This document shows, piece by piece, positions 15,680 to 41,634 of a stretch of DNA of 64,000 nt. Location of the stretch: the NCBI GenBank assembly GCA_026986575.1, contig JALSOH010000006.1:186001-250000 (forward strand), in the 5' to 3' direction. Within the stretch, counting starts at the first letter, position 1. Every line of letters starts with the position of its first letter. The position numbers were made by a program, and so were the translations under genes. Origin of the DNA: Thermoproteota archaeon (lineage in GTDB: Archaea; Korarchaeota; Korarchaeia; Korarchaeales; Korarchaeaceae). The notes under the pieces were generated by a model. That model made no database searches. It saw nothing but the letters and a program-made list of their open reading frames with translations, and was not told the DNA's origin.

Positions 15680-15747
15680 CTAATTTTCCACTGTTTTTGA
15701 ACCGGAGAAAGCTTAAGCTTATGTAATTGACTTCACTTGCAACTCCT

Positions 15748-16302
15748 ATGATACTGTCTGACAGCAGCATACGCTCCCTTATAGAATCGGGTGAGCTTTC
15801 CATAGATCCCCTGTACAACGATACGATCAGAGAGAACGGGGTCGACATGAGGATAGGACCCGAGATTGCCTTCCCGATAGTCACAGGAGAGGTAATAGAC
15901 CCGATCAGGGACAATCCCGCCAAGCACTTCTCGGTGAGGGAGATCCCCGATGAGGGGATAATAATACCGGGAAACACCTCTATCCTTCTAGTCACCGAGG
16001 AGTACGTGAGAATGCCCAAAGATGTCGCCGCCCTATGCGGACTCCGCTCCTCTATAGCCAGGTGGGGTTTCGTCGCCCCTCCCACGCTGATAGATGCTGG
16101 CTTCGAGGGTCAACTGACGATAGAGGTCATGTGGACCAGACCGGCGCCCGTGAAGCTGTATAAGGGCATAAGATTCCTTCATGTGGTGTTCTTCAGGGTG
16201 GAAGGTGAAGTGGAGAGGCCGTACAGCGGGAGCTACCAGGGGCAGAGGGGAGTTACACTCCCCAAGAAGCTCGAGAGCATCCGGTCGAGCAAAAAGGTTT
16301 AA
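15748..16302 (+). CDS. dcd: dCTP deaminase
   Basis: The 184-residue protein starts MILSDSSIRSLIESG, the standard opening of archaeal Dcd. The active-site region CGLRSSIARWGF and the substrate loop TLIDAGFEGQLTIEV are both intact. Dcd converts dCTP to dUTP, the route to dTMP in many archaea; whether it is bifunctional (Dcd-Dut) cannot be told. The start is ATG 15748; a TATA-like TTAAGCTTA within the AAGCTTAAGCTT palindrome (15709-15720) is about 30 bases upstream, consistent with a leaderless message. It lies next to the ribonucleotide reductase gene, fitting deoxynucleotide synthesis. Confidence 0.92.
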   Translation: MILSDSSIRSLIESGELSIDPLYNDTIRENGVDMRIGPEIAFPIVTGEVIDPIRDNPAKHFSVREIPDEGIIIPGNTSILLVTEEYVRMPKDVAALCGLRSSIARWGFVAPPTLIDAGFEGQLTIEVMWTRPAPVKLYKGIRFLHVVFFRVEGEVERPYSGSYQGQRGVTLPKKLESIRSSKKV

Positions 16303-16598: not shown

Positions 16599-19235
16599 AT
16601 GCCAGTCACTAAGGTGGTTAAGAGGGACGGTAGAATCGTCCCATTCGATGCATCTCGCATAAAGAGGGCCATAGAGGGGGCTATGCGAGAGGTAGGGCAT
16701 TATGATGAAGCTAAACTTGATAAGGTAGTTAAATATGTGCTTAGAGTTATAAACAGGACTTTCAGCGACGAGAATCCACCCCATGTGGAGGAGATCCAAG
16801 ACATAGTAGAGCTAGCCCTGATGAAGTACGACCTCTTCGATGTTGCCAAGGCTTACATCCTCTACAGGAAGGAAAGGGAGAAGATAAGAAAGGAGAAGAT
16901 GGCAATTCTCGGTAAAGATTACGTGGATGATGTGGATAAGAGGCTCTCCCTCAACGCCATAAGGCTGCTAGCAGCCAGATACCTGCAGAAGGACCCGGAT
17001 GGGAAGCTGAAGGAGGACCCGAAGGGCATGTTCATAAGGGTCGCCTCCTTGGTGGTGATCCCCGACGTGCTACACGACCCCAAGGTGTTTGATAAGGACG
17101 GTGGTCAGCCAGTTCACCCAAAGGAGGATTTCTCGCCGGAGGAGTGGGAAGGGAAAGTAGGACTTAAGAACGGCCATCCGGAGGATCACCTAGCTCCGAC
17201 GTTCACTTGGAACCGCTACCACTTGGAGAGGATGAAGGCGCTCTACGATGGACTGAATGAGCAGGGGAAGATGAAGGTGAGCTGGTCTCAGTTCTGGGAG
17301 ATGCTCCTTCGCGGAGAGTTCGATCACCACTACCAAGACTTCCTTAACTACTACAGGCTGATGGTCGATCTGAGGTTCCTGCCCAACTCCCCGACGCTGT
17401 TCAACGCTGGCACCAGGTTAGGTCAGCTCTCGGCTTGCTTCGTCTTGGACATAAACGATAGCCTAGAGTCGATAATGAAGGCCGCCACAGATGCGGCAAT
17501 GATATTCAAGTCCGGCGGAGGAGTGGGGATCAATTACTCCAAACTCAGGCCGCAGGGCGACATAGTCAGGTCAACCGGAGGTCAGGCATCTGGTCCAGTC
17601 AGTTTCATGAGGATAATAGATGTGATCACGGATGTGGTGAAGCAGGGCGGGCGCAGAAGAGGAGCCAACATGGGCATACTGGAGGTCTGGCATCCCGATA
17701 TATGGAAGTTCGTGGAGGCCAAAGCTAAGCCCGGTCAGTTCGAGAACTTCAACATCTCGGTGATGATAACGGGGGACTTCTGGCCCAAATTCGAGTCCGG
17801 AGAGGAGTACACCCTCATCAATCCCAGAAATGGCGAAGTTTGGGATACCCTGAACCCTAGAGAGTTCTTCAGGAAGATAGCCGAGATGGCCTGGCGTACC
17901 GGAGATCCGGGTGTGTTGTTCTCTGATAATATAAATAAAAGAAATATAATGAAAGAGGCATTAGGTGAAATAAAATCAACTAATCCTTGCGGTGAGGAGC
18001 CTTTATATCCATATGAGTCATGTAACCTAGGGAGCATTAATTTATACGCTTATATAAGGAGAGAGAACGGACTTATATCTTTCGATTGGGACTCTTACTC
18101 TGAGGACGTAAGACTGGCCCTTCGTTTCCTCGACAACGTCATCGATGTGAACAAGTTCCCCATTCCGGAAATAGAGAGGAACACCAAGGCCACGAGAAAG
18201 GTCGGCCTCGGTTTGATGGGGTTGGCTGACGTCCTCTTCGCGCTGGGAATACCGTACAATAGCGAGGAGGGCTTCGATTTCATGAGGAAGGTGGCCGAGT
18301 ACCTCACATACTTCTCCATGAAGGAGAGCGTTGAAATGGCCAAGGAGAGAGGAACCTTCCCACTTTATGGGAGATCAGGATACGTCAAAGGGGAAATGCC
18401 GTTTGAGGGCTTCTACCATCCGGAGTGGTGGCACCTAGACTGGGACGCCCTTAAGGAAGAGGTCATGAGGTACGGGATCAGGAACGCCGAAGTAACGACG
18501 ATAGCGCCGACTGGTTCCATCTCCATGATAGCCGACGTTTCTTCGGGAATAGAGCCTCAATTCGCGCTGGTGTATGAGAAGAGGGTATCCGTTGGCTCTT
18601 TCTTCTACGTGGATAGGGAGCTGGAGAGGCAGCTCAAGGAGAACGGCCTCTACCACGAGAAGCTTCTTAAGGAGATTGCCGATAATGGGGGTTCGCTTCA
18701 GGGGATAGAGCCTCCCGAGGGAAAGGAGGAGCTCTTCAAGAGGATGCAGCAGGTGTTCCTCGTGGCCTACGACATACCGTGGTGGGATCACGTCAGGGCC
18801 CAAGCGGAGATAGCCAAGTGGATATGCGCGGCGGTGAGCAAGACGATAAACATGCCCAACTGGGTGTCCGTCTCGGATGTTGAGAAGGCCTACCTGTTCG
18901 CCTACAAGCTCGGATTGAAGGGCATCACCGTCTACAGGGACGGCTCGAAGGCGGCCCAAGTTCTCGTGACCCCCTCCCAGAGGAAGGGCGAGTATGTGGT
19001 GAAAACAGAGAACCAGACGCTGAAGATGATGGAGATGCTAGGGATAGAGCTCCCCCAGCTCAAGAAGGCTCCTGTCGAGGAGAAGGCTCTAGCTCAGCCA
19101 GTCTTCAAACCTCCGTCACCACAGCCAGCGAATCATGTGGAGAGGTGTCCCGAGTGCGGCAGCACTCGGCTGGTTTACAAGGAGGACTGCGTCACCTGCC
19201 TGGACTGCGGGTGGTCGGCCTGCGTGGTCTCGTGA
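16599..19235 (+). CDS. nrdJ: Class II (adenosylcobalamin) ribonucleotide reductase
   Basis: The 878-residue enzyme reduces ribonucleotides to deoxyribonucleotides using adenosylcobalamin. An N-terminal ATP-cone (VVKRDGRIVPFDASRIKRAI, residues 5-95) gives allosteric control. The catalytic barrel shows NSPTLFNAGTRLGQLSACFV, the radical motif NPCGE (N462, C464, E466) with ESCNLGSINL, and the phosphate loop APTGSIS. The C-terminus has a zinc ribbon and redox cysteines (CPECGSTRLV, CVTCLDCGWSAC). The lack of an NrdB gene and the adjacent corrinoid adenosyltransferase agree with class II. A short patch at about 17920-18080 is far more AT-rich than the rest of the gene. Confidence 0.93.
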   Translation: MPVTKVVKRDGRIVPFDASRIKRAIEGAMREVGHYDEAKLDKVVKYVLRVINRTFSDENPPHVEEIQDIVELALMKYDLFDVAKAYILYRKEREKIRKEKMAILGKDYVDDVDKRLSLNAIRLLAARYLQKDPDGKLKEDPKGMFIRVASLVVIPDVLHDPKVFDKDGGQPVHPKEDFSPEEWEGKVGLKNGHPEDHLAPTFTWNRYHLERMKALYDGLNEQGKMKVSWSQFWEMLLRGEFDHHYQDFLNYYRLMVDLRFLPNSPTLFNAGTRLGQLSACFVLDINDSLESIMKAATDAAMIFKSGGGVGINYSKLRPQGDIVRSTGGQASGPVSFMRIIDVITDVVKQGGRRRGANMGILEVWHPDIWKFVEAKAKPGQFENFNISVMITGDFWPKFESGEEYTLINPRNGEVWDTLNPREFFRKIAEMAWRTGDPGVLFSDNINKRNIMKEALGEIKSTNPCGEEPLYPYESCNLGSINLYAYIRRENGLISFDWDSYSEDVRLALRFLDNVIDVNKFPIPEIERNTKATRKVGLGLMGLADVLFALGIPYNSEEGFDFMRKVAEYLTYFSMKESVEMAKERGTFPLYGRSGYVKGEMPFEGFYHPEWWHLDWDALKEEVMRYGIRNAEVTTIAPTGSISMIADVSSGIEPQFALVYEKRVSVGSFFYVDRELERQLKENGLYHEKLLKEIADNGGSLQGIEPPEGKEELFKRMQQVFLVAYDIPWWDHVRAQAEIAKWICAAVSKTINMPNWVSVSDVEKAYLFAYKLGLKGITVYRDGSKAAQVLVTPSQRKGEYVVKTENQTLKMMEMLGIELPQLKKAPVEEKALAQPVFKPPSPQPANHVERCPECGSTRLVYKEDCVTCLDCGWSACVVS

Positions 19236-39645: not shown

Positions 39646-41634
39646 ATGGCCCATAATGAAGCTCAAGGTGAGGAGAAATGCCTTAGTCTTGTACTGATCA
39701 AAGATATATTGTCGTTGAAAGAAGGCATTTCAAGGGCATTATTTGGAATAGTTGCCATCTATTACGCAAAAGTTTACTTTGAACTCTTAAAGAAAATTGT
39801 TCAAAATGGAATAAGTTTAGATATTATTTCTAAGATAATTATGGAGGTAAGAAATTTAATTTTAATAGTTGTATCAATTATATTTTTAACAGTTTTAATA
39901 AGATGTTTTATGATAAAGATAATAAGAAAGAACTTCATCTACAGAGCGGTAGTAGCAATTTATTTACATTTTTATTATGATTTTAAAATTAAATTATTGA
40001 GTTACCTTATAAACAAAATAAATACTCTAAGTAATGATGTAAGACAGTCTCAGTGGGAATCATTAAGATATTTGAAGATGTTTGTACTAACTTTGCTTGC
40101 GAGATTGATAGGACTTGGCGAATCCGAATTTATTAGAGAAGCTGCTATCTACATAGAAGAAACTAAAAAATTTAAAGAGAAATATTCATCTAATGTAAAA
40201 AAATATCTTCCTACAGTGCCTATGTCGTCAGAAGCCGTGGGAAAACCACTGCTAGTAAAAACTAATCACTTAAAGTATGGCTTCTACTGGAAGCCTTTTG
40301 ATTATACAATTTCACTTCTTTATGATGGGGCTCAACTTTTAAATATGATAAGTAATAAGGATAAGGAGAGAAGAAGAATAATATTAGAAGTGAATTTGTG
40401 TCAAGAAAAGAACGGACTTTTATCAATTTATAATAACGCAGGTAAGGTATTTATTTACGAACATTATGTTAAAAGATGTCTTGAATCGAGGGACTGTAAG
40501 AAAAAATTGGAGAGGCTAGCCAGTGAAATACATAACAGGATCAGAAAACCAATAACGTGGAAAGGAATTTATAAATTCCCTAAGGAATCACTCCCACTTC
40601 CTCTAAGATGGGCTTCAGGAGGAGTACTTCCCATAGCTTATTATAAAGAAAATTTTTGGTTTGTTCTCTTCTACCGGAACTTCTCCCCAATGTGCTGGAA
40701 TTTACCGTTGGGGGCATCAGAGACATTCAGTGAGCAGGAGAAGGTGGATATCATGTCTACCCGTGAAAGTATGGAGGAGATTTTACTAGTAGACAATGAG
40801 CCAGACAGGGGAAGTACACTTACACTAAAACCTATTTTCCCCCGAACGTCTCTGGAATTTAGATACATAAATGAATATATATGGCCAAAAGTTTATTCAT
40901 ATTTAAAAGAATATGCTAAACTCAGGCACCAACAAGACGGTTTTTCTATAAAGATACCTGAGGATCTCGGAGGGATATCAACTCCTGCTGGGGAGATATC
41001 CACTCCATATGATGTCAAAATTAAGTACAGATCCAAAAAAGAATCAATGATCCAAAATGTTTTATTTATAATAAATCCTGAGGAATTAGGAATAGAAATT
41101 ATACGACCCTTTATTTTCCTTATGAACGATGAGGACTATATACTTTGGGGGGAGATATGGAAGGGCGCATCAGCTATACCTAGAACTCCCGTACTACTTC
41201 TATCAGTTGATTATGTGCAAAATATCATCAAAAAGGGGGGAAAGTTTGGTGATAAATTGAAAGGTAACTATAAGAGATGCTCAGGATGTAGGTCGATTAT
41301 TAAAATTCCTAAGGAAAAATATGTATTATTCTACAAGGACATTCTCTTTGCCAAAGAGAGATTAGAGAACCTGAAGAGGCTGCCTAATCCGTCTTACAAA
41401 GAAAAACTTGAGATAAAAAGCCTTCGATGGCATAGTAGTTACTCAAAACAAATAGATTCGCTAATAAATTCAGCTAGAAAAGGCGGAGACCTAACTCTTA
41501 GAGAACATAGTATATTCATGAATTTCTGCCCGACTACTTGGAGATCTTTTGAAATACTTTACACTATCGAACGTTTAGATAAAAACTTTTTAGATAACAT
41601 GCTGAAAATCTGGTTTCTTGAGCGATTTCATTAA
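39646..41634 (+). CDS. Membrane-anchored Nudix-like protein, AT-rich and likely acquired
   Basis: The 662-residue protein is unlike its neighbours in base use: runs of AAA, ATA and TTT codons make the gene strongly AT-rich. Two or three membrane segments lie at about residues 28-50, 68-92 and 97-112. A Nudix-like domain follows: GGVLPIAYYK (325-334), WNLPLGASE (351-359), then E365-x7-R373-E-S-M-E-E378, which fits the second half of the Nudix box, although the first G-to-E spacing is three residues longer than usual. A C-x2-C pair (RCSGCRS) lies near residue 545. GGAGGT precedes ATG 39646. Membrane-tethered nucleotide hydrolases of this kind could act in nucleotide-signal or phage defence; this is inference. 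Confidence 0.55.
   Translation: MAHNEAQGEEKCLSLVLIKDILSLKEGISRALFGIVAIYYAKVYFELLKKIVQNGISLDIISKIIMEVRNLILIVVSIIFLTVLIRCFMIKIIRKNFIYRAVVAIYLHFYYDFKIKLLSYLINKINTLSNDVRQSQWESLRYLKMFVLTLLARLIGLGESEFIREAAIYIEETKKFKEKYSSNVKKYLPTVPMSSEAVGKPLLVKTNHLKYGFYWKPFDYTISLLYDGAQLLNMISNKDKERRRIILEVNLCQEKNGLLSIYNNAGKVFIYEHYVKRCLESRDCKKKLERLASEIHNRIRKPITWKGIYKFPKESLPLPLRWASGGVLPIAYYKENFWFVLFYRNFSPMCWNLPLGASETFSEQEKVDIMSTRESMEEILLVDNEPDRGSTLTLKPIFPRTSLEFRYINEYIWPKVYSYLKEYAKLRHQQDGFSIKIPEDLGGISTPAGEISTPYDVKIKYRSKKESMIQNVLFIINPEELGIEIIRPFIFLMNDEDYILWGEIWKGASAIPRTPVLLLSVDYVQNIIKKGGKFGDKLKGNYKRCSGCRSIIKIPKEKYVLFYKDILFAKERLENLKRLPNPSYKEKLEIKSLRWHSSYSKQIDSLINSARKGGDLTLREHSIFMNFCPTTWRSFEILYTIERLDKNFLDNMLKIWFLERFH

Follow-up and report, generated by a model that had tools for sequence, protein, structure and literature searches.

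An AT-rich tract at the radical-cysteine site of an archaeal nrdJ gene, plausibly a gene-conversion trace at an intein insertion point

Several parts of the picture are known already: inteins in ribonucleotide reductase (RNR) genes, intein transfer that marks gene flow (PMC4071816), homing through gene conversion, and co-conversion tracts. For an archaeal intein, homing by gene conversion was demonstrated experimentally (PMC3024317), and for the group I intron of plant cox1 a co-conversion tract was reported to be retained after loss of the element (PMC3192709). A homing element usually reveals itself by its own presence. In the present case, a gene without one bears a measurable trace at the very position where relatives are invaded, and this trace falls in an essential gene, at the radical site. 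A limited literature search found no paper on this nrdJ site or on such a scar in this archaeal group. The trace is best read as the scar of past DNA exchange at an intein site, a known kind of event in a new group.

The nrdJ gene and its AT-rich tract

The stretch analysed (the window, 64,000 nucleotides) belongs to genome G000, an assembly of 1.91 Mb in 11 contigs. The relatives compared with it are uncultivated 'Thermoproteota/Crenarchaeota archaeon' assemblies. The features of the gene are as follows.

16599..19235, + strand: nrdJ, encoding a B12-dependent (class II) ribonucleotide reductase of 878 aa without intein; intact ORF with PF02867, PF03477 and PF00317, and TIGR02504 (NrdJ_Z) above cut-off
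17919..18056, + strand: AT-rich tract, codons 441-486, GC3 0.22
17988..17990, + strand: codon TGC of C464, which aligns to residue 322 of T. maritima NrdJ (1xjk)
18021..18023, + strand: codon of C475, which aligns to residue 333 of T. maritima NrdJ (1xjk)

The original prediction, which described an AT-rich patch of about 140 bases with approximately 31% G+C in a GC-richer gene, agrees with the measured composition: positions 17920-18059 contain 31.4% G+C, the flanking 140-base windows within nrdJ 52-60%, and the whole gene about 54%. The protein is normal, as had been stated, with an intact frame and a class II assignment by both Pfam and NCBIfam, and the patch covers the predicted motif region NPCGE to ESCNLGSINL. 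Residue 322 of the T. maritima enzyme is the thiyl-radical cysteine. The composition is most extreme in codons 441-464 (GC 0.25, GC3 0.17) and milder in codons 465-489 (GC3 0.36), against a GC3 of 0.71-0.75 outside the patch. The most AT-rich 29-codon window of the gene comprises codons 444-472 (z -6.7).

The composition null was taken from 464 kb of one contig of G000. Among its 319 ORFs (120,133 codons) none has a larger within-gene fall in GC3 than the 49-codon dip of nrdJ (0.27 versus 0.71 for the remaining codons). When amino acids are corrected for (29-codon windows), nrdJ ranks 2 of 300, and the sole deeper dip sits in an in-frame stretch 5' of the probable start of its gene. The AT-rich patch is real and beyond chance. 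A codon-usage effect common to conserved motifs in this genome, named beforehand as a refuting outcome, was not seen.

Directly 3' of nrdJ lies a gene for an ATP:corrinoid adenosyltransferase (PF02572; 19246-19764, +), whose product, adenosylcobalamin, is the cofactor required by class II RNR; a dCTP deaminase-like gene is located upstream at 15727-16302. Elsewhere in the window a 662-aa ORF (39646-41634, +) has no Pfam match and, by eye, is apparently less GC-rich than its neighbours. A search for viral carriers found no relative of nrdJ among the viral contigs examined.

Inteins in relatives and the empty site

The NrdJ of the window was searched against 60 related genomes. In several congeners the protein is split at residue 464 within a single open frame of approximately 1290 aa, the insert being a LAGLIDADG intein of 393-395 aa directly before the radical-cysteine codon. 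The corresponding point in the window is empty:

17987..17988, + strand: intein insertion point, empty in the window, between P463 (CCT, 17985-17987) and C464 (TGC); an intein occupies the homologous point in relatives

The link to inteins made by the original prediction, which advised looking for relatives with one at residues 440-490, is borne out by eight genomes with the insertion at P463/C464: G007, G015, G006, G002, G014, G010, G023 and, on contig C3, G020. The nrdJ site is free of the intein in G000, G008, G003, G005, G001, G011, G012, G009, G016 and G022. In the window the nrdJ frame is uninterrupted, and no sequence matching the nrdJ intein was found across the whole G000 genome.

In the window's family all eight copies begin with Cys at position 1, end with HN and are followed by C464, which is thus the +1 residue for splicing in the carriers. 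PF14890 (Intein_splicing) was matched in each of three copies searched, with the G020 and G010 copies scoring above the curated cut-off; in the whole-genome search it exceeded the cut-off in G007, G015, G006, G002, G014 and G010. PF14528 (LAGLIDADG_3) was found in three copies with E values from 4e-17 to 8e-20. Judged by these sequence features, the site is a homing-intein site in close relatives.

In G020 one contig begins 19 bases before the intein-bearing site and another crosses the site without intein. The two contigs (C3, locus L039, with the intein; C15, locus L040, without it) overlap at the nrdJ site and differ at several bases; they probably represent strain polymorphism, with mixed alleles in the sampled population.

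The inteins of G007 and G015 differ at 4 of 1185 bases and the exteins at 69 of 2631 (p about 1e-7). Because the two inteins resemble each other far more closely than the hosts do, the intein appears to be recent in these two genomes. Between G007 and G020 the synonymous difference is 0.21 in the intein and 0.45 in the C-extein, and on this sequence comparison the intein has evidently crossed between the genera of the G007 and G020 lineages. The inteins themselves are not AT-rich (GC3 0.64 in the G007 copy).

Several inteins per genome were noticed in the genus. Further intein-bearing genes occur at loci L199, L200, L201 and L203 (G000 contigs C4 and C9, G001 C5, G013 C2), by eye RtcB-like, HerA-like ATPase and MCM genes. 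Another lies in the genome of the window itself:

G000 C6:417798-420266 (L109:7798-10269), beyond the window: gene of a KaiC-like ATPase that carries a LAGLIDADG intein of 540 aa

This intein is present in G000 and G008 and absent in the sister G015 and in G003, G005, G002 and G006. Of the 9 bases leading up to its insertion point, 3 differ between G000 and G015, a very short trace. The frame of the homologue in G010 (L210, C18:13714-14553) crosses three stop codons, possibly indicating a decayed copy or sequence errors.

Distribution of the tract and tree conflict at the site

To score the patch in relatives, amino acids and each gene's own codon usage were corrected for. A strong AT patch was found in six intein-free sequences (G000, G008, G003, G005, G016 and contig C15 of G020) and in three intein-bearing ones (G007, G015 and G014). 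In all nine, the strong AT windows centre no more than 7 codons from the insertion site. Only a weak patch, or none, is seen in G006, G002, G010, G023, G001, G011, G009, G012 and G022 and in the outside groups. Tract ends, set by eye from the codon table, lie at approximately codons 441-486 in G000, G007 and G015, 447-472 in G008, 456-493 in G003 and G005, and 447-475 in G016 and G020; the last two represent a second genus, with patches spanning the same site. The codon table, the positions of the AT windows and the tract shared by G003 and G005 (below) indicate that tracts cross the site and vary in length between lineages. The same base pattern in close relatives, with no donor signal, had been named in advance as a refuting outcome; the pattern does occur in them, but intein carriers are included and the tract lengths differ. 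Since the patch is common to the whole clade and the intein is recent in G007 and G015, the patch appears to be older than the sisters' intein.

Phylogenetic analysis of EF-2 and RpoB gave the order ((((G000,(G015,G007)),G008),G003),G005), which the tree of the rest of nrdJ matches in outline. In the only gene scanned for conflict, nrdJ, the best local tree was compared with the gene tree in 80 windows of 30 codons. The strongest disagreement lies beside the insertion site:

17871..17990, + strand: stretch of greatest gene-tree conflict, codons 425-464 (windows 425-454 and 435-464)

The log-likelihood differences of these windows, 42.0 (codons 425-454) and 39.5 (435-464), are ranks 1 and 2 of the 80 (mean 14.7, sd 7.9), and the sequence beside the insertion site thus departs from the phylogeny of the gene. 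The original prediction had suggested comparing the phylogenies of patch and gene; a tree of the 150-nt patch by itself, too short a sequence, was mostly unresolved.

Individual comparisons also point to exchange at the site. G003 and G005 share a 285-nt tract (codons 444-538) with a single mismatch (runs of 135 and 149 nt), compared with a gene-wide difference of 12.3%. The patch of G014 groups with G001 (97/96), the rest of its gene with G002. G000 and G003 differ by 33% in codons 441-455 and by 12.5% gene-wide. After AT correction, codon sharing with G000, G007, G015, G008, G003 and G005 is higher in the G016 patch than in other parts of the gene, a statistic that spans many correlated pairs and serves only as supporting evidence; the excess codon identity of G000 and G016 appears only in AT-corrected form and is not significant when each gene's own codon usage is applied. 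The G000 patch has excess codon sharing with the intein-bearing G006 and also with the intein-free G012, neither being a close donor, and no donor sequence was found among the genomes compared. A dip in mean synonymous divergence at the site was not seen over all pairs.

Origin of the tract

With moderate confidence, the patch is interpreted as a gene-conversion tract at the intein homing site, derived from an AT-richer relative outside the sample. The AT-rich tracts, the tree conflict and the shared tract all centre on the site, as fits conversion tied to a homing intein. A LAGLIDADG intein would circulate through nrdJ in the window's archaeal family, its nuclease cutting intein-free alleles beside the radical-cysteine codon, and repair of the cut from another allele would swap up to approximately 140 bases around it. 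The tract of the window's species would have been imported from an AT-richer relative before this species split from G007 and G015 and probably before it split from G008; subsequent conversions that ended elsewhere would have shortened or replaced the tract in G008 as well as in G003 and G005. A nuclease cut as the starting event is suggested by the position and by experimental work with other archaeal inteins (PMC3024317, PMC10643990). An older intein, since lost, may have resided in the window's lineage. Against the conversion reading stand the intein carriers G010 and G023, which have no AT patch, the composition of the inteins, the failure to find a donor among the genomes compared, the mostly unresolved patch tree, the lack of a dip in mean synonymous divergence and the very short trace at the KaiC-like ATPase site.

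The patch could instead be ancestral AT-rich sequence, or sequence kept AT-rich by selection on synonymous sites, whether for RNA structure, for translation speed or for an internal control element; it would then coincide with the intein site since both favour the conserved active-site motif. This is unlikely, even though several lineages are AT-rich here with and without the intein, codons ATA458 and TAT470 are identical in every sequence compared, and another intein site shows a milder AT dip in filled and empty alleles alike: the patch is absent in the high-GC congeners G001, G010 and G011, sister species differ in its end points, its left part has amino-acid changes along with the strong tree conflict, and an equally deep interior dip occurs in no other gene of about 300. 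The AT-rich DNA at the site in the two genera could be partly ancestral.

Less probable again is a gain of the present intein together with AT-rich flanks from an AT-rich donor, followed by precise loss in the window's lineage. The sisters G007 and G015 do carry the intein within the same flanks, and the cox1 intron offers a precedent for a co-conversion tract kept after loss (PMC3192709). The junction codons, however, differ, being CCC|TGT in G007 and G015 and CCT TGC in G000 and the intein-free G008; the inteins in G007 and G015 are much younger than the split between the two hosts; and several additional losses are required on the species tree. The original proposal of a conversion tract left by loss or repair of a mobile intein is therefore retained for conversion at the intein site, which the AT tracts, the conflict and the shared tract favour, and not for loss of the present intein, which the junction codons and intein age oppose.

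Repeated nuclease cuts mended by error-prone repair, during which cytosines in exposed single strands are deaminated, would make the sequence AT-rich in place and with no import. All 15 composition-changing differences from G003 in codons 441-463 go towards AT in G000, in favour of such a process, but the reading is very improbable: transitions and transversions stand at 13:5 versus 194:100 elsewhere, the sequence left of the cut lacks strand asymmetry (C>T 5, G>A 8), G016 of the second genus shares codons beyond AT content, and the intein-bearing G010 has no such patch. A deamination signature was looked for in the G000 and G003 differences and was not seen. An assembly error or a chance fluctuation, which the 11 contigs of G000 might suggest, can be practically dismissed: the independently assembled sister genomes G007 and G015, which have the same patch, refute this reading, and the dip is the deepest of about 300 genes.

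To return to conversion at the homing site, a wider form of this reading is put forward tentatively: repeated cut-and-repair may re-import AT-richer DNA at the radical-cysteine codon in two genera and leave lasting scars in genes without the intein. If this were true, AT islands could be used to locate past homing sites and to trace gene flow among uncultivated archaea. If the tract at the nrdJ site is confirmed as a trace of homing, scans of intein-free genes for composition and tree conflict could expose past homing and inter-species exchange in uncultivated archaea.

Among known systems, a related RNR intein occurs in G033 and others of its family (382 aa in G033, 46-51% identical) at the same point, NP|C. 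The G033 element is, we assume, probably that of Thermococcales, of the PI-PfuII / RIR1-2 type. This family forms a separate, older lineage, and no marked AT patch surrounds the site in G033. The Haloferax polB and mcm inteins (PMC3024317, PMC10643990) resemble the nrdJ intein in being LAGLIDADG inteins of conserved genes with a patchy presence, spread by double-strand break and gene conversion; in Haloferax homing was demonstrated by experiment, whereas the nrdJ case is read from sequence and the window holds the empty site only. Plant cox1 with its group I intron (PMC3192709), the best-studied case of co-conversion tracts, likewise has foreign-looking exon sequence directly flanking the homing site, variable in length and sometimes present without the element. 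Unlike the cox1 tracts of 3-81 nt, the nrdJ tract is two-sided, extends over approximately 140 nt, is marked by base composition, and belongs to a protein intein in archaea.
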